A stretch of DNA of 34,739 bases from Caulobacteraceae bacterium (GTDB lineage: Bacteria; Pseudomonadota; Alphaproteobacteria; Caulobacterales; Caulobacteraceae): contig JANXTX010000020.1 of assembly GCA_025352165.1 (NCBI GenBank), positions 1 through 34,739 on the forward strand, given 5' to 3'. The notes beneath the pieces were generated by a model, which searched no databases, had not been told where the DNA came from, and worked only from the letters and a program-made list of their open reading frames with translations. This document shows positions 759-24,347 of the stretch, in pieces. Each line of letters starts with the position of its first letter. Positions within the stretch are counted from its first letter, which is position 1. The position numbers and the translations under genes are program-made.

Positions 759-1529
759 ATGATCCATCTGCCGACCTCGCCCCTCGTACACCCGCTGTTC
801 GACCTGGCTGCGTGGGCGTTTGGCGCGGCGACGGGGTGGGCGCTCTATCGGTGGCGATTGCGGGAGGCGGTCGAGCGACTGTCGGTGCGAACGGGACCGG
901 GTTACTTTGTGGCGCTGGCGACGGGCGCCGTCGTCGGCGCATGGCTGGCAGGCTCTCTCAATACGTTGCGCGACCATGCGCCGACGCTTTCGCATAGCAT
1001 CGCGGGCGCCCTGGCCGGAGCCATCGTCTCGGTCGAGGTCTACAAGTTCGTCCGGGGGATCAAGGGTTCGACCGGGGGCGTCTTCGTCGGTTCGATCGCG
1101 GTCGGCGTTATCATCGGCCGCTTCGGTTGCCTGTTTGCCGGATTGCCGGACCGCACCTACGGCGTGCCGACAGGCCTGCCATGGGGCGTTGATCTGGGCG
1201 ATGGCATCGCCCGGCATCCGGTCCAGCTATACGAGAGCCTCTCGGTCGCTCTATTTCTCGCGCTCTATGTTGCGGGTCTGGCGGGGCGCGCGCCTTGGGC
1301 GATCAGGCGCGGATTCTATGTCTTCGCGATCTGGTACGGCGCGCAGAGGTTCGCCTGGGAGTTTCTCAAGCCCTATCCCAAGCTGATCGGGCCATTTAAC
1401 GTCTTCCACCTGATCTCGCTGGGGCTGGTGGTCTATGGATGCATCTGGTTTGCTCGCGACTTTCGCGACGAAGCCCGTGCGCAAGAGCGCGCCGTATCTT
1501 TTCCTGGGCCAGACCACCAGCCTGTGTGA
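759..1529 (+). CDS. Lgt-like integral membrane protein (prolipoprotein diacylglyceryl transferase superfamily)
   Basis: A 256-residue multispanning membrane protein. The central part, GRFGCLFAG followed by RTYGVPTGLPWG and HPVQLYES, matches the conserved core of Lgt, which moves diacylglycerol from phosphatidylglycerol to lipoprotein cysteines. Genuine Lgt normally reads GRxGNFxNGE here and HGGLxG upstream. This protein has GRFGC without the Asn, and STGGVFVG where the His-containing loop is expected. It is therefore probably a divergent paralogue rather than the housekeeping enzyme. Its end overlaps the radical SAM gene, implying translational coupling and a joint role, plausibly in membrane-lipid modification (inference). 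The ATG at 759 has only a weak ribosome-binding site. Confidence 0.8.
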   Translation: MIHLPTSPLVHPLFDLAAWAFGAATGWALYRWRLREAVERLSVRTGPGYFVALATGAVVGAWLAGSLNTLRDHAPTLSHSIAGALAGAIVSVEVYKFVRGIKGSTGGVFVGSIAVGVIIGRFGCLFAGLPDRTYGVPTGLPWGVDLGDGIARHPVQLYESLSVALFLALYVAGLAGRAPWAIRRGFYVFAIWYGAQRFAWEFLKPYPKLIGPFNVFHLISLGLVVYGCIWFARDFRDEARAQERAVSFPGPDHQPV

Positions 1530-2880
1530 GACCTGCCTGGCGCTGGTTCCCGCGAAGGTGACAGCCGAGGACGGCTGCGTGTTCTATCTGAAACGGTGCC
1601 CCGAGCATGGCGTGCAGAAGACGCTGATTTCCGATGACATCGCCTATTGGAAATCCCAGCGCGATTGGCTCAAACCCGGCGATCGTCCTCTGGCGCCGCA
1701 GACGCGCACGGACCACGGCTGCCCATACGATTGTGGCCTGTGTCCCGACCACGAGCAGCACTCCTGCCTGGCGATCATCGAGATCAACGACGCTTGCAAT
1801 CTTTCCTGTCCGGTCTGCTTTGCCGAGTCGTCGATCAAGCGCGACACACAACGCTCGTTGACTGAGATCGAAGCGATGCTTGATGCGGTGGTGGCGTCCG
1901 AGGGCGAGCCGGATCTGGTGCAGATCTCCGGCGGCGAACCGACGATCCACCCGCGGTTTTTCGAGATACTCACCGCCGCCAAGGCGCGCCCGATCCGACA
2001 TCTGATGATCAACACCAACGGGGTTCGCATCGCGCGCGAACCGGGTTTTGTTGAACGCCTGGCGGAATTCATGCCGGGCTTCGAAGTTTATCTGCAGTTC
2101 GATTCCCTGCGCCGCGAGGCGCTGATGGATCTGCGGGGCGCCGACCTGACCCGGGTGCGCATCGAAGCCCTTGAGGCGCTGGAGCGGCTAAACATCTCGA
2201 CCACACTGGTGGTGACGCTGAAGAAGGGCGTCAACGAGGGCGACATCGCCGACATCGTCCGTTTCGCGCTCAAGTGGCGCTGCGTACGCGGTGTGACGTT
2301 TCAGCCGATCCAGGACGCCGGTCGCAACGACGGCTATGATGCCCTCAAGAATCGCATGGTGCTGTCGGAGGTGCGACGGGAGATCGCCGGGGCAGGGGTT
2401 TTCGCTCTCGAGGATATGATTCCGCTGCCGTGCAATCCCGACCAGATCTGCATCGGCTATGGCCTGCGGAACGGCGAAACGGTTGCGCCGATCACGGCGC
2501 TGTTGCCGCGCGATATCCTCGTCGACGCCGCGCCGAACTCCGTCACTTTCGAGGGCTATCCGGAATTGCGCGAGCGGGTGTTCAACCTGCTGTCGCTGTC
2601 TACGGCCCAGGCGGACACCTCGGACAAGCTCGCCGAGGTGCTCTGCTGCCTGCCCGACGCGGTGGTTCCCGAGGGCCTCGCGTACGAGAACACATTCCGG
2701 GTCGTGGTGATGCAGTTCCTCGATCGCTTCAACTTCGACATCGCCACGGTGAAGCGGTCCTGCGTCCACTTCGTCCAACCGGATGGCCAGATCATCCCGT
2801 TTGATACCTTCAATACATTCTATCGGCCGGGCGCGGCGGGTGCGCGCTCGCTTGCGAGGGCAAAGGGAGCCGCGAGATGA
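1435..2880 (+). CDS. Radical SAM enzyme of the tetraether lipid synthase (Tes)-like family
   Basis: 481 residues from ATG 1435. GTG 1477 (467 residues) is an alternative that reduces the overlap with the upstream gene. An amino-terminal cysteine-rich region has C31/C34 and C48/C55, a rubredoxin-like spacing, then C96, C100, C103 and C111 in a GCPYDCGLCPDH context. The radical SAM motif CNLSCPVCF follows (C121, C125, C128), with ISGGEP at about 165-169. Further cysteines near 334-340 (LPCNPDQIC) could bind auxiliary clusters. This order is that of archaeal Tes, which joins lipid chains by radical C-C coupling, and of its uncharacterised bacterial relatives. The substrate here is unknown; coupling to the Lgt-like and two-helix genes suggests a membrane lipid. 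The family call is fairly firm; the reaction is inferred. Confidence 0.82.
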   Translation: MDASGLLATFATKPVRKSAPYLFLGQTTSLCETCLALVPAKVTAEDGCVFYLKRCPEHGVQKTLISDDIAYWKSQRDWLKPGDRPLAPQTRTDHGCPYDCGLCPDHEQHSCLAIIEINDACNLSCPVCFAESSIKRDTQRSLTEIEAMLDAVVASEGEPDLVQISGGEPTIHPRFFEILTAAKARPIRHLMINTNGVRIAREPGFVERLAEFMPGFEVYLQFDSLRREALMDLRGADLTRVRIEALEALERLNISTTLVVTLKKGVNEGDIADIVRFALKWRCVRGVTFQPIQDAGRNDGYDALKNRMVLSEVRREIAGAGVFALEDMIPLPCNPDQICIGYGLRNGETVAPITALLPRDILVDAAPNSVTFEGYPELRERVFNLLSLSTAQADTSDKLAEVLCCLPDAVVPEGLAYENTFRVVVMQFLDRFNFDIATVKRSCVHFVQPDGQIIPFDTFNTFYRPGAAGARSLARAKGAAR

Positions 2881-3179
2881 TGCAGACGCCTCCCGAGAGT
2901 GTTGAGGCCTACAATCGCCGAATGGCGGGCAAACGGTTTCTCGGCTGTCTGCTGATGGCGACCGGAGGCATGGTTGCTTTGCTTTGCGGCCTTTGCACTA
3001 TCTGGGTAGGCGCGACGATGTTCAGTCCGGGGCAGGGAGATCTGGGCGCCGCGTTGCTGATACCGTTGGTTATCGGCGGCGTGCCGGCCGCGGGTGGCGT
3101 CGCACTGTTCGTCGTGGGGCTGCAGATGTTCCGGGAGGGTCAGAAACGCCGAAACCCGTCAGCGGTGATCTTCGATTGA
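2877..3179 (+). CDS. Small two-helix membrane protein of the radical SAM operon
   Basis: 100 residues. The start overlaps the radical SAM stop as ATGA (2877-2880), so the two are very likely translated together. Two hydrophobic segments (about residues 20-48 and 57-84) are joined by a short loop with FSPGQGDLG and followed by a basic tail (REGQKRR), which suggests both termini are cytoplasmic. I recognise no family and no catalytic motif. It may anchor the radical SAM enzyme at the membrane or present a lipid substrate; this is inference from context only. Confidence 0.75.
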   Translation: MMQTPPESVEAYNRRMAGKRFLGCLLMATGGMVALLCGLCTIWVGATMFSPGQGDLGAALLIPLVIGGVPAAGGVALFVVGLQMFREGQKRRNPSAVIFD

Positions 3180-3570
3180 AGCCCGAGTTTCCCTTTTTCC
3201 GACTTTGATCGCCAGGATCCCTTGGAGCCCTCTGGCAGGCGACCGCCCTAACAGTCGCGCCAGTCGTATAGACGATTGGGAATGTGGATTTGCGGGCTCC
3301 AGCATCGATCGATTTCGGACCGGCGAATGTCTTCCCGACGAAACTAGGCCGGCATCCCGAGCAGAGCGCCTCCCTGGCGGAATCATTCGGGCTTTGTCGG
3401 CGCTTCGCAATTCGCGAGATGATGGTGGACCGGGACGCCTCGGTCCGGCTAGCGTTCGTAACTCGACTCTCGAGCTATGACGCCAGCTACCTCTGGCTAG
3501 GCTGTGATCTGGGGATCGAATTGATCATCCTGGACAAGCGGCTGGCCGCTGATTTTGCACAGGTACCTCC
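3180..3570. other. Intergenic stretch before glpK, holding a toxin-gene remnant
   Basis: The first 240 bases show no convincing gene, hairpin or promoter. The last 150 bases encode the carboxy-terminal part of a VapC-like PIN domain (listed separately). No antitoxin (vapB) reading frame is visible. Confidence 0.5.
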
Positions 3571-3574
3571 ATGA
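3419..3574 (+). pseudogene. Remnant of a VapC-type PIN-domain toxin (carboxy-terminal part)
   Basis: The frame carries SSYDASYLWLGCDLGIELI followed by ILDKRLA, the hallmark end of VapC PIN-domain ribonucleases, where YDASYL holds an acidic metal-binding residue and LDKRLA is the last strand and helix. The usual first half, with the DTSV-type first aspartate, is missing. The preceding codons in the same frame and in the other frames do not resemble it. No vapB partner is present. The stop codon overlaps the glpK start (ATGA). I interpret it as a decayed toxin gene left beside glpK. A short expressed peptide cannot be excluded. Confidence 0.55.
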
Positions 3575-5055
3575 CCACCCGTTACATTGCCGCCATCGAC
3601 CAGGGGACGACGTCCTCGCGCTGCATGATCTTTGACGCCGCCGGCGCGGTGGCTGCCAGCGCGCAGGTGGAGCATCGGCAGATCTATCCGCGGCCTGGCT
3701 GGGTCGAGCATGACGCCATGGAGATCTGGGCCAATGTCTCCGGCGTGGTGTCGGCCGCGATGGCCAAGCTGGGGATCGCTCCGCGCGATCTGGCGGCCGT
3801 CGGCATCACCAACCAGCGCGAAACGACACTGCTGTGGGACAGGGCGACCGGCGTTCCCATCGCAAACGCCATCGTCTGGCAGGACACGCGGACTGATACA
3901 CTTTGCCAGGAGCTTGGCGCACGGGACGGACAGGATCGCTTCAGGACGCGGACAGGGCTTCCGTTGGCGACCTATTTCTCGGGCCCCAAGATACGCTGGC
4001 TGCTCGATAACACCCCCGGTGCGCGCGAAGCGGCGGAGCGGGGCGATGTGCTGTTCGGCACCATGGACAGCTGGCTGATCTGGAAGCTCACCGGGCGCCA
4101 CGTCACCGACGTGACCAACGCCAGCTGCACGATGCTCATGAGCCTGGCCACGCTGGACTGGGACGATGAACTGTTGGAGGCGATTGGCGTACCTCGCGCG
4201 GTGCTGCCGCAAATTCGCTCCTCGGCGGAGATCTATGGAATCGCGACCGGCGTGCTGGAAGGCGTGCCGGTGGCTTCGGCCCTGGGCGACCAGCAGGCGG
4301 CGCTGTTCGGGCAAACCTGTTTCTCGCCGGGCGAGGGGAAATGCACCTACGGAACCGGGGCATTCCTGCTGGTGAATACAGGCGCATCCGCCGTGCAGTC
4401 CACGCATGGCCTGCTGACCACCGTCGGTTATCGGATTGGTGACGCGCCGCCGGCTTATGCTCTCGAAGGGTCGATCGCCGTCGCCGGGTCGGTCGTGCAG
4501 TGGCTACGGGATAACCTTGGATTGATTTCCTCGGCATCGGAAATCGAGGCGCTGGCCCGGTCGGTTGAGGACAATGGCGGCTGTTACTTTGTCCCGGCCT
4601 TTTCCGGATTGTTCGCGCCCCATTGGCGCTCGGAGGCGCGCGGTGTGATCGCCGGGCTGACCGCCTACGTCGGCAAGGGACATATCGCCCGCGCCGCGCT
4701 CGAAGCCGTCGCCTGGCAGGTCAGGGAGGTGGTGGACGCGATGGCCGCCGATTCCGGCCAGCCGCTGACCCTGCTAAAGGCCGACGGCGGCATGACCGCC
4801 AACAACCTGCTGATGCAATTCCAGGCCGATGTGCTCGATGTTCCCGTTGCGCGACCTGCGATCGCCGAGACCACTTGTTTGGGGGCCGCCTACGCCGCCG
4901 GCCTTGCGGTCGGCTTCTGGCCCGACCTGGAAACATTGCGTGGCCAATGGCGCCAGGACGCCTCGTGGCGACCGGCAATGGCCGCCGAAAACCGTGGTCG
5001 CGCCTACGCCAATTGGAACAAGGCCGTGCAGCGAACGTTGGGCTGGATAAGCTAG
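3571..5055 (+). CDS. glpK: Glycerol kinase
   Basis: 494 residues, normal length for the FGGY-family glycerol kinase, which makes sn-glycerol-3-phosphate from glycerol and ATP in the cytoplasm. The amino end [10 protein letters not shown] is the first phosphate-binding loop. GITNQRET and IVWQDTRT carry the glycerol-binding Arg, Glu and Trp. [12 protein letters not shown] carries the catalytic Asp and neighbouring Gln. The FGGY second signature is [12 protein letters not shown] near the carboxy end. There is no adjacent glpF or glpD. Its product could feed glycerolipid synthesis or glycolysis; the neighbouring Lgt-like/Tes-like module makes a lipid link attractive but unproven. Confidence 0.96.
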
Positions 5056-15519: not shown

Positions 15520-15558
15520 ACCCTAGGCCAGCGATTGGCCAGTTCCAGGAGATATCCT

Positions 15559-15639
15559 ATGGTTTGGAAGACCCCGAAGATCGTCGAGATCGTCTGCGGC
15601 GCCGAAATCAACGCTTACGTCAGCGCCGAGATCGCCTGA
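15559..15639 (+). CDS. pqqA: PQQ precursor peptide PqqA
   Basis: A 26-residue peptide beginning MVWKTPKIVEIV, with AGGAG ahead of the ATG. The Glu16 and Tyr20 in the context AEINAY are the two residues that PqqE crosslinks and that become the carbon skeleton of pyrroloquinoline quinone. The spacing Glu-x-x-x-Tyr is the family hallmark. The peptide is short but sits directly before pqqB, which makes the call secure. It ends with SAEIA, as is common in alphaproteobacterial PqqA. Confidence 0.95.
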   Translation: MVWKTPKIVEIVCGAEINAYVSAEIA

Positions 15640-15648
15640 CACTAGGCC

Positions 15649-16548
15649 ATGAGGATCGCGGTGCTGGGGGCTGCGGCGGGGGGTGGTTTCCCGCAGTGGA
15701 ACTCCAATGCCGAGGGGTGTCGGCGCGCCCGTGCTGGTGACCCGGCGGCGCGATCCCGAACCCAGGCCAGCATCGCCGTCAGTATCGACGACGAGCGCTG
15801 GTATCTGATCAATGCTTCACCCGATCTGCGCGAACAGATCGGGTTTTCTGCGTTTCTGTGGCCGAGATATGGATTGAGATCTTCGCCGATCGCTGGCGTT
15901 GTTCTCACCGGCGGAGATGTTGACGCGATCGCGGGGTTGCTGACCTTGCGCGAACGCCAGCCTTTCACACTCTATGCCACCAGCCGCATCCACGCGGTGC
16001 TGGACGCCAATCCCATATTCGAGGTGCTGGCGAAAGCCGTCGTTCAGCGGGAAGTCGTCGCGCTGGACCGTTCTACCGAACTCGAGGACGGCCTGTCTTT
16101 TGAATTGTTCGCGGTGCCTGGAAAGACCCCGCTCTATCTAGAGGACTCCGACACTCCCGCGATCGAGACCAATGAGACGACCGTTGCAGTCGCCTTAACC
16201 CACGGAACAACCACGGCTTTCTACATTCCTGGGTGCGCGCGGATGACGCAGGAACTGGCGGATCGGTTGCGCGGGGCGACGCTGGTGTTCTTTGATGGGA
16301 CGCTCTGGCGGGATGACGAGATGGTTGTCGCGGGGCTCGGCTCGAAGACCGGCCGGCGCATGGGGCACATTAGCCTGGACGGCCCTGACGGGACGCTGGC
16401 AGCGTTCGAAAATCTCGGCGTGGCTCGCAAGATCCTGATCCATATCAACAACTCCAACCCGGTGCTGCTTGAGGACTCACCCGAACGGGCGCATGTCGAG
16501 GCCCGTGGCTGGGAAGTCGCATACGACGGCCTGGAGGTGAGACTTTGA
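15649..16548 (+). CDS. pqqB: PQQ biosynthesis protein PqqB
   Basis: 299 residues, metallo-beta-lactamase-like fold. PqqB hydroxylates the crosslinked tyrosine late in PQQ synthesis. Recognisable parts are GAAAGGGFPQWN, WYLINASPDLREQI, GLLTLRERQPF, FFDGTLW, MGHISLDG and ILIHINNSNP (His265). At the usual metal-binding Asp-x-Asp-His the sequence is D90-V-D92-A93, so the His appears replaced by Ala. Codons are clear (GAC GCG). The gene begins 9 bases after pqqA and ends overlapping pqqC. Confidence 0.94.
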   Translation: MRIAVLGAAAGGGFPQWNSNAEGCRRARAGDPAARSRTQASIAVSIDDERWYLINASPDLREQIGFSAFLWPRYGLRSSPIAGVVLTGGDVDAIAGLLTLRERQPFTLYATSRIHAVLDANPIFEVLAKAVVQREVVALDRSTELEDGLSFELFAVPGKTPLYLEDSDTPAIETNETTVAVALTHGTTTAFYIPGCARMTQELADRLRGATLVFFDGTLWRDDEMVVAGLGSKTGRRMGHISLDGPDGTLAAFENLGVARKILIHINNSNPVLLEDSPERAHVEARGWEVAYDGLEVRL

Positions 16549-17285
16549 CGCGTGAACCGCTTTCTCCGGCCCAACTGGAGGCGGCGCTGCGGGCGATTGG
16601 CGCCGAGCGCTATCACAATCTACACCCATTCCATCGGCTGCTGCATTCGGGCAGGCTGAACCGTGGCCAGGTGCGCGCCTGGGCGTTGAATCGTTATTAT
16701 TATCAAAGCAATATCCCCGTGAAGGACGCCTATCTGACGGCTCGGCTGCCGACATCGGAGTTGCGCCGTGAGTGGCGCAGGCGGCTGGTCGACCATGATG
16801 GCGAGGGTGATTTGCCTGGCGGCATCAAGCGTTGGCTGAAGCTCACCGAGGGCGTCGGCCTCGATCGGCAATACGTTGAAAGTACTGAAGGAATCCTGCC
16901 GGCGACGCGGTTCGCGGTGGACGCCTATGTCCACTTTGTACGTGATCGCACGCTGCTGGAGGCGGTGGCGTCATCGCTGACCGAGCTGTTCTCGCCAACC
17001 ATCATCGCCGAGCGGGTTTCGGGCATGCTGGCCAACTACGATTGGATCACGGCCGAAACACTGAGCTATTTCAATGCCCGGATCACCCAGGCGCCCACTG
17101 ACAGCGCGTTCGCCCTAGCCTATTGCAAGGAGCGCGCCCTGACGGTGGAACAACAGGACGCCGTGCTTGATGCGTTGCGATTCAAGTGCGCGGTCCTGTG
17201 GTCCCAGCTTGATGGGTTGTATCTGGCCTATGTCGACCCGGGACTTATCCCGCCGGGAGCCTACGATCCAGGCGCTGAGCCGTGA
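16545..17285 (+). CDS. pqqC: PqqC, pyrroloquinoline-quinone synthase
   Basis: 246 residues. PqqC is a cofactorless oxidase that closes the ring and performs the final eight-electron oxidation to PQQ. The all-helical family pattern is clear: YHNLHPFHRLLHSGRLNRGQ, WALNRYYYQSNIPVKDAY, ILPATRFAVDAYVHF and SLTELFSPTIIAERV. The start is TTG 16545, which overlaps the pqqB stop as TTGA. An excellent ribosome-binding site (GGAGGTGA, 16531-16538) at the right distance supports this rare start. Translation is probably coupled to pqqB. Confidence 0.95.
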   Translation: MTREPLSPAQLEAALRAIGAERYHNLHPFHRLLHSGRLNRGQVRAWALNRYYYQSNIPVKDAYLTARLPTSELRREWRRRLVDHDGEGDLPGGIKRWLKLTEGVGLDRQYVESTEGILPATRFAVDAYVHFVRDRTLLEAVASSLTELFSPTIIAERVSGMLANYDWITAETLSYFNARITQAPTDSAFALAYCKERALTVEQQDAVLDALRFKCAVLWSQLDGLYLAYVDPGLIPPGAYDPGAEP

Positions 17286-17554
17286 TCCATATCGACTCAA
17301 TTCCCAAGCTAAAACAAGGGGTTAAGTTTCGTTTCGATCGCGCGCGCGACGCGTGGATTCTGCTTGCGCCCGAGCGCCTGTTCATGCCCGACGAGGTTGC
17401 AGTCGAGGTGCTGAAGCGAGTTGATGGCGTGAGGAACGTCACCGCGATCGTCGATGAACTGGCGGCGGCGTTCAATGCGCCCAGGGAAGAAATCGAGAGC
17501 GATGTGCTGGGCATGCTGGAGGATCTCAGCCGGAAGGGAGCCGTGAGCGCGTGA
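17282..17554 (+). CDS. pqqD: PqqD, PqqA-binding chaperone
   Basis: 90 residues starting at GTG 17282, overlapping the pqqC stop as GTGA. PqqD is a RiPP recognition element that binds PqqA and presents it to PqqE. Family hallmarks are PKLKQGVKFRFDRARDAWIL, LAPERLF, DEVAVEVLKRVDG and a final winged-helix segment with MLEDLSRKG. It remains a separate gene here rather than fused to PqqC or PqqE. Confidence 0.95.
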   Translation: MIHIDSIPKLKQGVKFRFDRARDAWILLAPERLFMPDEVAVEVLKRVDGVRNVTAIVDELAAAFNAPREEIESDVLGMLEDLSRKGAVSA

Positions 17555-18630
17555 CCTCGCAGCCGCTGGCGCTGATCGCTGAGCTGACTCATCGGTGTCC
17601 GCTAAGTTGCGGATATTGTTCAAATCCTTTGGAACTCGAGCGGGCGAGCGCCGAGCTTCCGACGGAGATCTGGACTCGGGTTTTCGCCGAAGCGGCCGAT
17701 CTGGGCGTTTTGCACGCGCACTTTACCGGTGGCGAGCCGATGTCGCGGCGGGATCTTTCCGAGCTGATCGGCGCGGCTTCGCGGGCGGGGCTCTACACCA
17801 ATCTGATCACCTCGGGGGTGACGCTGGACGACCGGGCGCTCGGGGCGCTGATCGATGCCGGCGTTGACCACGTGCAGTTGAGTTTCCAGGACTCCGAGCC
17901 GGCCACCGCCGACGCCATTGGCGGCTATCGCGGCGGGCACGCCAGGAAGCTGGCGGCTGCGGCGCGGGTGACGGCGGCGGGTCTGCCGCTGACCGCCAAC
18001 TTCGTGGTTCACCAGAGTAACTTGCACCATATCAATGAGATGCTGTCGCTGGGCGACGACATTGGCGCCTCCCGGATCGAGATCGCCCATGTGCAGTATC
18101 ATGGCTGGGCGTTAAAGAATCGGGCGAGGCTGATGCCGACGTTCGCACAACTTGAAGCGGCAACCGCCGCTGTCGAAGCGGCGCGCGAAAGGCTCCGCGG
18201 AAGGGTGGTTATCGACTATGTGATCCCCGATTATTTCGCCAGCCGGCCGAAAGCCTGCATGGGCGGTTGGGGTCAGCGGATCATCAATGTCTCGCCGGGC
18301 GGTCTGGCGATGCCGTGCCATGCGGCGATGAGCCTGCCGGGGCTAACTTTTCCGTCGGTGCGCGATCGGTCGCTTGCTGACATCTGGAATAATTCCGAGG
18401 TATTTCAACTGTTTCGCGCACCGGCATTCGCTCCGGAGAGCTGCAGGGGGTGCGAGCGGCTGGAGATCGATTTCGGCGGGTGCCGCTGTCAGGCGCATGC
18501 CTTGACGGGGGATGCGACGCGCGCTGATCCGGTGTGCGAGCTTGCGCCCGATCATGGGCTGATCGCGGCGGCTCTCGGAGAGACAGCCTCGGACACCGTC
18601 ATTCCACGGCGCATGACAGCGCGGGACTGA
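17551..18630 (+). CDS. pqqE: PqqE, radical SAM PqqA Glu-Tyr crosslinking enzyme
   Basis: 359 residues from GTG 17551, overlapping pqqD as GTGA. The radical SAM motif is C16-x3-C20-x2-C23 (CPLSCGYC), followed by FTGGEP. The carboxy-terminal SPASM domain is shown by CMGGWGQ, MPCHAA, CRGCERLEIDFGGCRC and a last CELAPDH, which hold the auxiliary iron-sulfur clusters. It forms the Glu-Tyr C-C bond of PqqA using S-adenosylmethionine. No pqqF or pqqG protease gene follows, so peptide trimming must be done by a gene elsewhere. Confidence 0.96.
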   Translation: MTSQPLALIAELTHRCPLSCGYCSNPLELERASAELPTEIWTRVFAEAADLGVLHAHFTGGEPMSRRDLSELIGAASRAGLYTNLITSGVTLDDRALGALIDAGVDHVQLSFQDSEPATADAIGGYRGGHARKLAAAARVTAAGLPLTANFVVHQSNLHHINEMLSLGDDIGASRIEIAHVQYHGWALKNRARLMPTFAQLEAATAAVEAARERLRGRVVIDYVIPDYFASRPKACMGGWGQRIINVSPGGLAMPCHAAMSLPGLTFPSVRDRSLADIWNNSEVFQLFRAPAFAPESCRGCERLEIDFGGCRCQAHALTGDATRADPVCELAPDHGLIAAALGETASDTVIPRRMTARD

Positions 18631-18741: not shown

Positions 18742-19269
18742 GTGACCGGCCAGTCCTCATGTCCGGAGTCGGCCGATCCCGCGGAATTGCTCGACGATTT
18801 CCGTCAGGCGATGCGCGGTGTCGCTTCGACTATTCACATCGTCACCTTGCTGGTCGAGGGCGCGCCCAAGGGCATGACCGCAACGGCGGTCTCGTCGCTT
18901 TCCATGCAGCCGCCGAGCCTGCTGGTCTGCATGAACGAGAGCGTGTCGATGCATGAGGCGATGGCCGGGGTCGACTGGTTCTGCGTCAGCGTCCTGAGCG
19001 CTCGTCATGTCTCGGTGGCCAGGACCTTTTCCGACAGCCGGCTGCGCGACGTGCGCTTCGAAACGGGCGAATGGAACATCGATGACGAGCACGCGCCGCG
19101 GCTGGCCGACGCGCAGGCGGCCATGTTGTGCAAGCGCGTCGGCCATCACCGGTTCGGCACGCACAGCATTTTCCTTGGTGAGGTATGCAAGGTCTGGCTG
19201 CATGGCGCGCCCGATCCGCTGATCTATCTCGACGGGTCGTTCCAGACGCCGGGGCCGGTCGCGGACTAG
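18742..19269 (+). CDS. Flavin reductase-like FMN-binding protein
   Basis: 175 residues from GTG 18742, with GGGAGG about 11 bases upstream. It has the split-barrel FMN-binding pattern of NAD(P)H:flavin oxidoreductases (HpaC/ActVB-like): FRQAMRGVASTIHIVTLLVEG, GMTATAVSSLSMQPPSLLVCMN, FCVSVLSARHVSVARTFS and a final HRFGTHSIFLGEVCKV with LIYLDGSF. It supplies reduced flavin to a partner. Candidates in the window are the halogenase-like protein (far away) or, speculatively, reduction of PqqE. It ends sharing CTAG (19266-19269) with the stop of the convergent glk. Confidence 0.88.
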   Translation: MTGQSSCPESADPAELLDDFRQAMRGVASTIHIVTLLVEGAPKGMTATAVSSLSMQPPSLLVCMNESVSMHEAMAGVDWFCVSVLSARHVSVARTFSDSRLRDVRFETGEWNIDDEHAPRLADAQAAMLCKRVGHHRFGTHSIFLGEVCKVWLHGAPDPLIYLDGSFQTPGPVAD

Positions 19270-20261
19270 CTCGAGAGGCCCAACAGCAGTCGGGCCGCGC
19301 CGAGCAGGGCGGGCTCGGGATGGGCGATCAGGGCGATCGGGATCGTGGTCAGCAAGCCGTGTGCGCGGCCCTTGGCCTCGAAACGGGCGCGGACAGCGGC
19401 CGTGTCGAGAAACTCCAGCATGCGCGGGGCGATACCGCCGGCGATGGCCACCGCGCCGCCGCCCTGGACCAGGGCGACGTCGCCCATCGCGCCGCCTAGA
19501 ATGAGGCAGAAACGTTCGAGCGTATCCCTGGCCAGCGGGTCATCGCCGCGCTGCGCGGCCTGCATGATCGCCGGAGCCCCGGCGAGCGTCGCGGGCTGAC
19601 CGCGAACAACTCCCATCGCCTCATACAGGTTTTGTAGTCCCGGGCCCGACAGCAGTCGTTCATTGGAAACCCGGGGGAAGCGTTTCAGCAGTACACGAAG
19701 TATCTCGATTTCCATGGCGTCCAGGGGAGCGAAACTGCCGTGGCCGCCTTCGGTCGGAATGACAATGAAGCCCTCGCCGTCGCGAGCTACCGCGCCGACG
19801 CCCAGCCCGGTGCCGGGCCCGATCAGTGACACGACCGTGGGCAGGGCGTCGGGCCAGGCGGGGCCGGTGAGCGGGCGCCAGTGCTCAGCCCTCAGAGCCG
19901 GGACGGCGTGGCCGACAATGGCGAAGTCGTTGACGACCAGCAGCCGACCCCAGCCGAACGCGGTGCGCAGCGCCTCTATGCTGAACGACCAGTCGCGGTT
20001 TGTCAGGCGGACAATGTCGCCAGTGACGGGCGAGGCGACGCCGAACGCCGCCTGGCCAGGCCTTGGCGCCTCGGGACCGAGGCCCGCGAGATAGGAGGCG
20101 ATACAGGCGGCGAGGCCCGGATGATCGTCGGCGCGCAGATCCTGGCGCATGGCGGTCGCCACCTCGCCGTCGGGCGTGCGGCCGGCCAGCGCGAACCGCA
20201 CATTGGTGCCGCCGATGTCGGCGACGAGACCGACCGGACTATCGATGGCGAAGGGGCTCAT
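19266..20261 (-). CDS. glk: Glucokinase
   Basis: 331 residues from ATG 20261, which overlaps the eda stop as ATGA; codons upstream belong to eda. The E. coli-type glucokinase pattern is plain: ADIGGTNVRFAL (phosphate loop), NRDWSFS, VVNDF (catalytic Asp), LIGPGTGLGVG, PTEGGHGSFAP and a late AIAGGIAPR. It phosphorylates cytoplasmic glucose to glucose-6-phosphate, the substrate of Zwf. Last gene of the Entner-Doudoroff operon. Confidence 0.95.
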   Translation of the reverse strand: MSPFAIDSPVGLVADIGGTNVRFALAGRTPDGEVATAMRQDLRADDHPGLAACIASYLAGLGPEAPRPGQAAFGVASPVTGDIVRLTNRDWSFSIEALRTAFGWGRLLVVNDFAIVGHAVPALRAEHWRPLTGPAWPDALPTVVSLIGPGTGLGVGAVARDGEGFIVIPTEGGHGSFAPLDAMEIEILRVLLKRFPRVSNERLLSGPGLQNLYEAMGVVRGQPATLAGAPAIMQAAQRGDDPLARDTLERFCLILGGAMGDVALVQGGGAVAIAGGIAPRMLEFLDTAAVRARFEAKGRAHGLLTTIPIALIAHPEPALLGAARLLLGLSS

Positions 20262-20875
20262 GCCTTGCGCCAGGCGGCGGCCTCTCGGGCGCGGGCTTCG
20301 ATAGCGGCGAGGTCCGGCGCGCCGGGCGGGACCAGCCAACTGCCGCCAACGCAACAGACGCCGGGCATCGCCAGCCAGTCGGGAGCGGAGGCCGCGGTGA
20401 TGCCGCCGGTGGGGCAGAAGCGCGCCTGATGGAATGGGCCGGCGAGAGCTTTCAGCGCCGGGCGTCCGCCGGAGGTTTCGGCCGGGAAGAACTTGAAATG
20501 GGTCAGGCCGAGTTCAAGGCCGCGCATGATGTCGCCGGCGGTTGCGACGCCTGGCAGGAAGGCAACCCGCGCGGCGATGACTGCGCTGGCCAGCGACCCG
20601 GTAAGGCCAGGGCTGACGATGAAGGTCGCCCCGGCGTCGAGGCTGGCGGCGAGGTCCGCGGCGTTTAGCACGGTCCCGGCGCCGACGATGGCGCCCTCGA
20701 CGCGCCTCATTTCGGCGATGACCTCAAGCGCCGCGGCGGTGCGCAGGGTGACCTCGAGCACGGTCAGCCCACCGGCGACCAGCGCGCGTGCGATGGGCGC
20801 GGCATGAGCGGGATCGTCGATGACCAGCACCGGGATGACCGGGGACAGGCGCATGAGGGAGGCGATGGGGGTCAT
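20258..20875 (-). CDS. eda: KDPG aldolase (2-dehydro-3-deoxy-phosphogluconate aldolase)
   Basis: 205 residues from ATG 20875. The frame upstream of it runs into an intergenic repeat and is not part of the gene. EVTLRT carries the catalytic Glu, VGAGTVLN and FIVSPGLTG line the barrel, THFKFFPAE holds the Schiff-base Lys, and CPTGGI the phosphate site. It splits KDPG into pyruvate and glyceraldehyde-3-phosphate. It is separated from edd by a 163-base gap filled with a repeat element. Confidence 0.95.
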   Translation of the reverse strand: MTPIASLMRLSPVIPVLVIDDPAHAAPIARALVAGGLTVLEVTLRTAAALEVIAEMRRVEGAIVGAGTVLNAADLAASLDAGATFIVSPGLTGSLASAVIAARVAFLPGVATAGDIMRGLELGLTHFKFFPAETSGGRPALKALAGPFHQARFCPTGGITAASAPDWLAMPGVCCVGGSWLVPPGAPDLAAIEARAREAAAWRKA

Positions 20876-20896
20876 GGGGGGCCTTTGCGCGGAGGG

Positions 20897-21020
20897 ACCC
20901 TCATCCGGCCCTTCGGGCCACCTTCTCCCAGGGGGAGAAGAGAGGGAAACCAATGGGCGGCGGTGATTGGCGGTCTCTTCTCCCTCTGGGAGAAGTACGG
21001 CCGAAGGCCGGGATGAGGGT
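20897..21020. repeat. Composite palindromic intergenic repeat
   Basis: Outer arms 20897-20919 and 20999-21020 are near-perfect reverse complements, with the core CCTCATCC...GGCC. Two inner hairpins of the CTTCTCCC/GGGAGAAG type lie at 20921-20946 and 20975-20995. It belongs to the same family as the element at 26921-27068. It sits inside the zwf-edd-eda-glk operon and could affect mRNA processing or stability. Confidence 0.75.
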
Positions 21021-21038
21021 GTCGCCGCAACAGCTGAC

Positions 21039-22859
<1,821 letters not shown>

Positions 22860-22871
22860 CGGGTGGCTTCC

Positions 22872-24347
22872 TCACTCATGCCAGGTGACCCCGTCGCGCT
22901 CGGCCAGGCCGATGCCGGCGGATGGCCCCCATGAACCGGCGGTATAGGGCCTGGGCTTCATGTGGTTGTTTTCCCAGCCGTCGCGGATTGCGTCGACCCA
23001 GGCCCACTGCGCCTCGACCTCGTCGCGACGGACGAACAGGGTCGGCTGGCCTTCGATCAGGTCGATCAGTAGCCGCTCATAGGCGATGCGACGGCGCACG
23101 CCGGCGAAGGCGTCGGTTAGGCTGAGATCCAGCGCGACCTCGCGCAGCCGCAATCCTTCCCGGTCAAGGCCGGGTTGCTTTGCCATGACCAGCAGACGGA
23201 TGTTTTCCTCGGGCTGCAGGCTGATGACCAGCTTGTTGGGGCAGAGCGCGGCGCCGGCGCCGACGCCCGCGTCGGCGAACATCGAGTGCGGCACGGGCTT
23301 GAACTGGATGAAGATTTCCGACTTGCGCACGGGCAGGCGCTTGCCGGTGCGCAGATAGAACGGCGCGCCTTGCCAACGCCAGTTGTCGATATGCGCCTTC
23401 AACGCGACAAAGGTCTCGGTGTCTGACGGGCGCTCGAGATCAGCGACATAGCTGGCGGCCGGCTGACCCAAGGCGCTGCCCTGCGTGTACTGGCCGATCA
23501 CCGAATTGGCCTGCGCCGTGGCGCGCTCGATCGGACGTAGCGAGCGCAACACCTTGACCTTCTCGTCACGCACCGAAGTGCCGTCGAAGTGGGCGGGCGG
23601 CTCCATGGCGACCAGGCTGAGCAGCTGCAGCATGTGGTTCTGCACCATATCGCGCAGGGCGCCGGCGCCGTCATAGAAGTCGCCCCGGCCCTCCAGGCCG
23701 ACCGTCTCGGCGATGGTGATATGCACGTGGTCGATGCCGCGGGCGTTCCACAACGGCTCGAACATGGCATTGGCGAAGCGCAGGGCGATCAGGTTCTGGA
23801 CGGTCTCCTTGCCCAGGTAGTGGTCGATGCGGAAGGTGCGCGCCTCCGGGAACGCGGCGGCCACCGCGTCGTTTATCGCCATCGAGGACGCGAGATCGTG
23901 GCCGAGCGGCTTTTCCAGGCCGATGCGCACATTGGGCCCGGCGAGGCCGGCGCCGACCAGGCCCTGGATGGTCGCCTCGAACAGGCTGGGCGCCGTGGAA
24001 AGGAAAATGGCCACCCCGGCGTCGGGGCCCGCATCGACGGTGGCGGCGAGCTCGGCGAAATGCTCCGGCTGGGTGACATCGAGCGTGCGGTACGAGACGC
24101 GGTGGAGGAATTTCTCGATGTCGAAAGCCTTGGCGCGTTCGCCGGGCAGAAAGCGCGCCAGGCTGGCGCTGACCATCTCGCGGAACTCGGCGTCGTCGTG
24201 TTCGCTGCGCGCGGTGCCGATGATGCGCAGGCCCGGCGCGAGCAGTCCGTCGGCATGCAGGTTGAAGAGCGAAGGCAGCAGCATGCGCTGCGACAGATCG
24301 CCGGTAGCCCCGAACAGCAGCAGTTTCGTAACGGTGGGCGATGTCAT
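22872..24347 (-). CDS. zwf: Glucose-6-phosphate 1-dehydrogenase
   Basis: 491 residues. LLLFGATGDLSQRMLLPSL is the NADP-binding start. GLEKPLGHD and FRIDHYLGKETVQNL carry the substrate-binding and catalytic residues (Asp-His pair). YLRTGKRLPVRKSEI and the last third complete the family pattern. It makes 6-phosphogluconolactone, feeding Edd. It is the first gene of the operon and has a palindromic operator over its probable promoter. The 6-phosphogluconolactonase gene (pgl), often placed next to zwf, is absent. Confidence 0.96.
   Translation of the reverse strand: MTSPTVTKLLLFGATGDLSQRMLLPSLFNLHADGLLAPGLRIIGTARSEHDDAEFREMVSASLARFLPGERAKAFDIEKFLHRVSYRTLDVTQPEHFAELAATVDAGPDAGVAIFLSTAPSLFEATIQGLVGAGLAGPNVRIGLEKPLGHDLASSMAINDAVAAAFPEARTFRIDHYLGKETVQNLIALRFANAMFEPLWNARGIDHVHITIAETVGLEGRGDFYDGAGALRDMVQNHMLQLLSLVAMEPPAHFDGTSVRDEKVKVLRSLRPIERATAQANSVIGQYTQGSALGQPAASYVADLERPSDTETFVALKAHIDNWRWQGAPFYLRTGKRLPVRKSEIFIQFKPVPHSMFADAGVGAGAALCPNKLVISLQPEENIRLLVMAKQPGLDREGLRLREVALDLSLTDAFAGVRRRIAYERLLIDLIEGQPTLFVRRDEVEAQWAWVDAIRDGWENNHMKPRPYTAGSWGPSAGIGLAERDGVTWHE

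Follow-up and report, generated by a model that had tools for sequence, protein, structure and literature searches.

The window analyzed here is a stretch of 34,739 nucleotides from a Caulobacteraceae bacterium (assembly GCA_025352165.1, contig JANXTX010000020.1, forward strand), which carries near its start three overlapping open reading frames (ORFs) on the + strand, on which the motifs and sites of the module located below also lie. The first one (759-1529) encodes a membrane protein related to Lgt (PF01790) which is not the housekeeping Lgt, the second (1435-2880) a radical S-adenosylmethionine (SAM) enzyme assigned by family, sequence and predicted-fold matches to the fold of the archaeal tetraether lipid synthase Tes, and the third (2877-3179) a small two-helix membrane protein of 100 residues belonging to an unnamed family. 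The Lgt-like and radical SAM genes overlap by 95 bases and the radical SAM and small-protein genes by 4 bases, the start codon of the latter being embedded with the radical SAM stop in an ATGA sequence. This layout, which had been reported in an earlier note made from the sequence alone, was confirmed at the stated coordinates. Collectively, the Lgt-like protein, the radical SAM enzyme and the small protein constitute one conserved bacterial module.

The co-occurrence of the three families, which the earlier note had suggested to examine, extends well beyond the window. The named loci considered next come from the best 80 among 566 relatives; being closely related, they do not count as independent cases, and they include Caulobacteraceae, Sphingomonadaceae, Reyranella, Bradyrhizobium, Rhodoplanes and Devosia. 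An Lgt-like gene is located upstream of the radical SAM gene, on the same strand, in 80/80 of these loci. In five of them, the Lgt-like match ends 458-473 bases before the enzyme and in one, 1438 bases before it, and in two others (L069 and L070) the Lgt-like gene is cut by a contig end. Among 60 genomes of relatives, the enzyme gene is present in 12, and Lgt-like matches above 100 bits occur in these same 12 genomes and in G003, all other matches listed scoring at most 51 bits, which is the range of ordinary Lgt. Within a sample of 398 genomes of the phylum, 12 were found to have the enzyme, and Lgt-like matches exceeding 120 bits were obtained for exactly these 12 genomes. Among 337 genomes of the class, four have the enzyme and four an Lgt-like protein above 200 bits, three being shared; the remaining two are G258, which has a diverged Lgt-like protein, and G383, which has an Lgt-like protein and no enzyme. 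When the three samples are pooled, 25 distinct genomes possess the enzyme and 25/25 have the Lgt-like gene at the locus, with one other gene lying between the two in G541.

In both genomes which contain the Lgt-like gene without the enzyme, the Lgt-like gene is broken. In G003 (83% complete), the Lgt-like sequence departs after ~178 residues and is followed by the tail of a small-protein gene, as if after a deletion, and in G383 it is frameshifted and shortened. The gene order is thus conserved far beyond chance. It could be proposed that these genes are unrelated neighbors and that the Lgt-like protein is a spare lipoprotein enzyme, since an ordinary Lgt is also encoded in the window genome and in others. 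Such an explanation is hardly credible in view of the occurrence of both genes in the same 12/398 genomes, their joint decay in two genomes and their recurrence in other phyla; chance linkage is already contradicted by these counts.

The radical SAM protein is matched by the Pfam families Radical_SAM (79.3 bits) and HMPTM zinc ribbon (66.7 bits), and among solved structures its nearest sequence match is archaeal Tes (7TOL, E 1.5e-61). An AlphaFold2 model computed with 36 sequences (mean predicted local distance difference test (pLDDT) 75, predicted template modeling score (pTM) 0.81, residues 365-415 being below 50) was matched by Foldseek to Tes (7TOM; TMq 0.77, root-mean-square deviation 5.9, 500 columns, E 7.1e-37), the next family being SkfB (E 3.3e-10). 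On the basis of this model, the enzyme is predicted to have the full-length Tes fold. Three of the four Tes metal sites are present in its sequence, each of them invariant in 36/36 aligned rows. The first one is a rubredoxin-type site, C31-x2-C34-x20-C55-x2-H58 (1525-1608), with the same CX2CX20CX2H spacing as the Tes site C9x2C12x20C33x2H36 (PMC9433317). The second is an N-terminal auxiliary cluster site, C96xxxC100xxC103 with H106 and H109 (1720-1761), and the third the radical SAM cluster, C121xxxC125xxC128 (1795-1818); they correspond to the next two sites of Tes. The cysteine layout read in the earlier note was therefore correct for C31, C34, C55 and the two following blocks, and erroneous for C48: this position is variable in the 36 rows (E, D, K, A, R and others), the fourth conserved residue being H58. 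The three N-terminal auxiliary-cluster cysteines are absent from the actinobacterial Lgt-linked (L125, L127 and L133) and haloarchaeal (L126, L134 and L135) rows, in which the rubredoxin-type cysteines are present.

Despite this predicted fold, the enzyme is a relative of Tes and not a Tes. It scores 269.7 bits with the Tes equivalog NF045702 (cut-off 450) and 302.9 bits, its best NCBIfam score, with TrsS NF045646 (cut-off 490). Orthology with TrsS was ruled out by the latter cut-off, and orthology with Tes by the NCBIfam cut-off together with key residues. Met439 and Tyr459 are conserved in 1,000 archaeal Tes (PMC9433317); in the 36 rows, the position equivalent to Met439 (426 in the window enzyme) is occupied by V in 16, S in 9, L in 5, M in 3 and I in 3, and the one equivalent to Tyr459 is Phe446 in 36/36. 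Since the M439A and Y459F variants of Tes stay active according to the same source, these replacements do not exclude a Tes-like chemistry. The C-terminal cysteines of Tes (438, 455, 456 and 470, a numbering derived from alignments with the Tes row) correspond in the window's group to V/I425, Ser442, C443 and Asp/Glu457, so that only Cys456 is kept, Ser442 and Asp/Glu457 each being found in 36/36 rows. In a phylogenetic tree, the window's wider group (25 rows, including Persicobacter) was recovered at 97/98 and separate from both Tes and the methyltransferase-linked rows, and the actinobacterial Lgt-linked rows and L112 were placed elsewhere on long branches; the separation from Tes is to be read with the long branch of the Tes row, which was joined from two typed pieces. 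L112 and M. vanbaalenii are also long branches, and the L129 row is a 326-residue fragment. The comparison with archaeal Tes put forward in the earlier note was borne out for the predicted full-length fold; the identification of the enzyme as a Tes was not supported. Anti-phage defense was also considered and rejected, as PADLOC gave two matches to viperin models (46 and 41 bits), both located on the radical SAM core.

The Lgt kinship of the upstream gene, also proposed in the earlier note, was substantiated by a Pfam LGT score of 67.5 bits (gathering cut-off 24.9). The protein scores 18.6 bits with the NCBIfam lgt equivalog, for a cut-off of 118.9, and a separate ordinary Lgt is encoded in the window genome on contig C246 (238 bits, versus 66.7 for the window copy in the same search). 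Its AlphaFold2 model (mean pLDDT 92.8) shows seven long helices. Conserved positions were counted after exclusion of one wrongly chosen ORF row, which had been taken as its genome's own Lgt. Several residues of the Escherichia coli enzyme are kept in the aligned rows, namely R143 (79/79), E202 (80/80), Y235 (80/80), R239 (80/80) and E243 (81/81). R143 corresponds to R121 of the window protein, located in a GRFGC motif (1116-1130) in which C124 replaces N146 in 79/79 rows; the N149 position is mostly Ala and E151 mostly Leu in the family. In E. coli Lgt, R143 and R239 hold the phospholipid donor, and the HGGL motif with H103 has been proposed to bind the lipobox peptide (PMC4728403).

For the window copy of the third protein, no match at E 0.01 was obtained with Pfam or NCBIfam families. 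A holin was envisaged from weak matches to Pfam Phage_holin_3_6 in 9/27 rows (best 1.9e-5), the window copy not being among them at E 0.01, and was rejected, these hits being taken as hydrophobic-composition matches. The small protein possesses a G-x-C motif, G38-L39-C40 (2988-2996), near the predicted outer end of its first helix, and both G38 and C40 are invariant in the 27 rows of the small-protein alignment. As the rows of this alignment, and of a larger one with 113 copies, were chosen on the motif, the cysteine counts in them are no test of its conservation; the test is provided by an ORF choice based on position only, i.e. the ORF whose start overlaps the stop of the enzyme gene in the 80 loci. 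Such an ORF with a hydrophobic segment was found in 76/80 loci, 63 of them having a G-x-C inside the segment (by script) and 8 a GLC or GGC just outside the scored segment (by eye). Among the remaining five, three are of the Reyranella type with an LGC and two (L061 and L100) have none, the next ORF having LGC at L061 and G-x-C at L100. In the four loci without an overlapping ORF (L064, L067, L075 and L085), the motif is present in a later or differently started ORF. As a control, G-x-C was found in 3/331 hydrophobic segments of other genes from the same loci, this rate being per segment and the small protein having about two segments.

The G-x-C motif is thus near-invariant within a fast-evolving family. 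For 38 loci, pairwise identities have medians of 65% (enzyme), 49% (Lgt-like protein) and 34% (small protein), the small protein diverging fastest. The 113 copies, retained from 118 motif-selected small ORFs after five were dropped as non-membrane, have the consensus L-[LF]-[PS]-G-[LG]-C-[ATS]-L. The distribution of charges places the N-terminal side of the cysteine helix inside in 102 copies (six are opposite and five are ties), and the cysteine lies at a median of 19 residues from the last polar residue. One copy is present in 51 loci, two in 23, three in 4 and four in 1, and L088 has one; tandem copies are 22-61% identical (median 41%). All 25 enzyme-positive genomes encode at the locus a small membrane protein with such a cysteine. 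In the 60 genomes of relatives, a small-protein profile retrieved 11 of the 12 enzyme-positive genomes (E <=3.3e-6, all at the locus); beyond these, it matched the G003 remnant and, weakly, two genomes that lack the enzyme gene (G052, E 0.0045, and G047, E 0.0075). In the window genome, its one match is the window copy. The motif and the tandem copies therefore point to the small protein as an acceptor or substrate and not as a mere third membrane part.

A scheme can be proposed in which the Lgt paralogue lipidates the small-protein cysteine, with the lipid tails being modified or coupled by the Tes-fold enzyme; we favor it tentatively, giving it somewhat less than an even chance. The small membrane protein would serve as acceptor: the helix bearing its cysteine is predicted to run from inside to outside, and the cysteine terminates it close to the predicted outer face, which is where a lipobox cysteine would encounter Lgt. 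The Lgt paralogue, with a donor site like that of Lgt and an acceptor site that differs, would transfer a diacylglyceryl-type lipid from a phospholipid to the G-x-C cysteine. At the cytoplasmic face, the Tes-fold enzyme would act on this lipid, either prior to its transfer or once it is attached, by generating a radical on one of its acyl tails and coupling or otherwise modifying that tail. That the small protein is the substrate and the Lgt-like protein its lipid transferase is suggested by the G-x-C motif and where it lies, by the copies in tandem and by the relation to Lgt. The Tes fold and the lipid pockets of Tes suggest the enzyme to be a lipid-tail modifier: Tes binds two phospholipids with their tails in hydrophobic pockets (PMC9433317). 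We infer the lipid on the cysteine, the lipid tail as radical substrate, the order of the steps and the product. A more elaborate proposal is that of an undescribed protein-lipidation pathway in ordinary bacteria: the Lgt paralogue would attach a phospholipid-derived group to the G-x-C mini-proteins, and the Tes-fold enzyme would forge carbon-carbon (or carbon-sulfur) bonds in the lipid tails. The resulting lipid anchor of the protein would be bridged covalently or macrocyclic, and might span the membrane; in this full form we regard the proposal as unlikely.

The same Tes fold and lipid-binding precedent also speak for a free-lipid pathway, close to the reading of the earlier note, in which the Lgt-like protein and the enzyme would together produce a phospholipid that is modified or spans the membrane, and the small proteins would be non-lipidated scaffolds, regulators or subunits. 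Bacterial Tes homologues have indeed been proposed for branched tetraethers in two studies (PMC8941075 and PMC11868695). This alternative, which we consider somewhat unlikely, leaves unexplained why one cysteine is retained in fast-evolving, often duplicated proteins and why the partner is an Lgt relative. Furthermore, we know of no such lipids from Caulobacter, Sphingomonas or Bradyrhizobium.

Several observations weigh against the lipidation scheme. Searches with the Lgt-like model by Foldseek and VIA-align list no Lgt crystal structure (5AZB), and the profile of the family matches 5AZB by sequence (E 7.4e-5); the assignment to Lgt therefore rests on sequence. In addition to the change of N146 to Cys, the position of H103 in HGGL is occupied by A in 30, E in 29, V in 16 and L in 4 of 79 rows, and R246 is replaced by Lys in 81/81. 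All the tested H103 and R246 variants of E. coli Lgt, including R246K, failed to complement, as reported in the same study (PMC4728403). Because of these replacements at H103 and R246, a plain Lgt activity is doubtful for the Lgt-like protein. The donor half being kept and the proposed acceptor half changed, this pattern fits a new cysteine acceptor, yet argues against plain Lgt activity. The loss of H103 and R246, along with the strong conservation of both cysteines, would also suit a redox role, in which the small-protein cysteine and Cys124 of the Lgt-like protein would form a thiol/disulfide relay or a metal site for the enzyme, with no lipid transfer. We regard such a role as very unlikely: the multiple copies and the lipobox-like surroundings of the cysteine would be unexplained, and the lipid-donor residues are retained.

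Within the lipidation scheme, the acceptor motif itself also raises difficulties. A standard lipobox has A, G or S at position -1. Among the 113 copies, the residue preceding the cysteine is L in 62, G in 29, A in 7, I in 6, S in 3, T in 3 and V in 2, so that 39 would satisfy this position; the window copy, which has Leu, would not. The cysteine is followed by a median of 10 uncharged residues, and in G045 the sequence is S-I-P-A-C, the Gly of G-x-C being missing. As judged from these features, G-x-C resembles a lipobox without being a standard one.

The last difficulty concerns the enzyme. Tes couples two sp3 carbons of lipid tails, and its C-terminal cluster carries the coupling intermediate. 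When 34 rows were compared, cysteines at positions 442 and 457 were found in all nine rows outside the window's group, namely Tes, three actinobacterial rows, L112 and four methyltransferase-linked rows. C333 is present in 33/34 rows and absent from the Tes row, and C404 and C405 are present in 29/34, being absent from Tes, the actinobacterial Lgt-linked rows and L112. Judging from these alignments, the C-terminal cluster is probably held differently in the window's group than in Tes, and the altered cysteine set makes a Tes-type coupling less sure. The lack of two of the Tes C-terminal cysteines, unique to the window's group among the rows compared, lowers the probability of the lipidation scheme and of its more elaborate form, and raises that of a direct action on the peptide. 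In this latter possibility, akin to the biosynthesis of ribosomally synthesized and post-translationally modified peptides (RiPPs), the enzyme would act on the small protein, for instance by forming a carbon-sulfur bond at the cysteine, and the Lgt-like protein would present or export it. The changed C-terminal cysteine set would permit such a non-Tes chemistry, many radical SAM enzymes mature peptides, and the small proteins, being short, quick to diverge, often present in tandem and marked by a single fixed motif, resemble precursors. We nevertheless consider it quite unlikely, as full-length Tes is the best structural match, well above peptide maturases (7.1e-37 versus 3.3e-10 for SkfB), the cysteine is predicted outside and the enzyme expected in the cytosol, and the retention of the donor-site residues of Lgt would be left without a purpose.

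Other versions of the module were found in more distant organisms. In Persicobacter (Bacteroidota), an enzyme 51% identical to that of the window is accompanied by an Lgt-like protein and a 59-residue protein ending in TGICGSLLS, whose cysteine follows the second helix. The trio or a pair is also present in Mycobacterium branderi, M. avium and Nonomuraea, with enzymes 32-33% identical; in these Actinobacteria, the cysteine comes after the last helix near the C-terminus, in a G-x-CTG-x-NP sequence. By inspection, the cysteine is again predicted on the same side of the membrane. Of the ten plasmid records in which 80% of the query was covered, eight were examined (all except H7 and H8). In M. 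vanbaalenii (L124) and the haloarchaea Salinirubellus (L126), Halorarius and Haloarcula (L134 and L135), a homologue of the enzyme lies beside a methyltransferase gene, and no Lgt-like gene is annotated near these methyltransferase-linked homologues. The best NCBIfam match of the M. vanbaalenii and Salinirubellus homologues is TrsS, below cut-off. The methyltransferase appears as another type of partner for the same Tes/TrsS-like enzyme family. At L112, the locus of G258, a radical SAM protein 28% identical to that of the window is followed by two small proteins with A-G-T-C and F-G-T-C and, beyond them and ~0.6 kb after the enzyme, by the diverged Lgt-like protein (GKIGC); a gene resembling that of a membrane methyltransferase stands in the same row, and the set spans 1.3-3.5 kb after the radical SAM start. 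This locus is possibly an extended version of the module.

A glycerol kinase gene (glpK, window 3571-5055) is located immediately 3' of the module. It also adjoins the module in L016, where it is 81% identical, and is the neighbor in none of the other ten loci of 11 relatives. Both glpK and tesB were rejected as module parts, since neither was found in the best 80 loci, which were scanned over at most 6 kb per side with many contigs being shorter, and glpK is a neighbor in only 1/11 of the relatives' loci. Between the module and glpK (window 3460-3574) lies what looks by eye like the leftover C-terminal portion of a PIN/VapC-like gene; at L013, which is related, a fuller antitoxin-PIN-like pair follows the small proteins. 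Further along the window, a pqq gene cluster (~15550-18630) presumably comprises pqqB, pqqC and pqqE, as assigned by eye, and a likely pqqA, ending in CGAEINAYVSAEIA, is located just before pqqB inside a listed ORF. On the - strand (window 19266-24347), a set of genes was taken by eye for an Entner-Doudoroff set (glucokinase, aldolase, dehydratase and glucose-6-phosphate dehydrogenase), followed by a presumed beta-glucosidase-like gene.

Regarding novelty, no report on the combination of Lgt-like, Tes-like and small protein was found in a search of the open-licence literature, and to all appearances neither the module nor the small-protein family has been described; the two large proteins both belong, as divergent members, to known superfamilies. 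Bacterial Tes homologues number 456 in one survey (PMC8941075) and occur in 281 metagenome-assembled genomes in another (PMC11868695); they are so far unexplained matches, tentatively tied to branched tetraether lipids. With the present module, one group of them gains a genetic context, consisting of an Lgt paralogue and a cysteine-bearing mini-protein, and its function therefore becomes testable in culturable bacteria; Caulobacter sp. BK020, Sphingomonas aerophila and Bradyrhizobium sp. BTAi1 are among the carriers. This context also calls for caution before every bacterial Tes match is taken for a gene of membrane-spanning lipids. If the proposed scheme is true, it would yield lipidated proteins of a new kind, and the module may reveal radical chemistry in protein lipidation.

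Among known systems, archaeal Tes (GDGT-MAS; 7TOL, 7TOM; NF045702) shares with the module enzyme the predicted full-length fold and the rubredoxin-type, N-terminal 4Fe-4S plus His and radical SAM sites. In contrast to Tes, the module enzyme scores below the cut-off, has a changed C-terminal cysteine set and sits with Lgt-like and G-x-C proteins. With the TrsS radical SAM (seleno)protein (NF045646), it aligns over nearly the whole model, but its 302.9 bits remain below 490. The Lgt-like protein resembles Lgt (5AZB; PF01790) in passing the Pfam cut-off and in keeping R143, E202, Y235, R239 and E243, and differs from it by the loss of H103, the replacement of N146 by Cys, of R246 by Lys and mostly of E151 by Leu, a genuine Lgt being encoded elsewhere. 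As in lipobox lipoprotein precursors, the small protein has an inside-to-outside helix and a cysteine after small residues; unlike them, it often has Leu at -1, a hydrophobic stretch past the cysteine, usually a second helix and no long periplasmic domain. Finally, Mss, the bacterial membrane-spanning lipid synthase, compared here by its description, is a precedent for lipid-tail coupling in bacteria, and its models have the Tes architecture according to its authors (PMC13274423).

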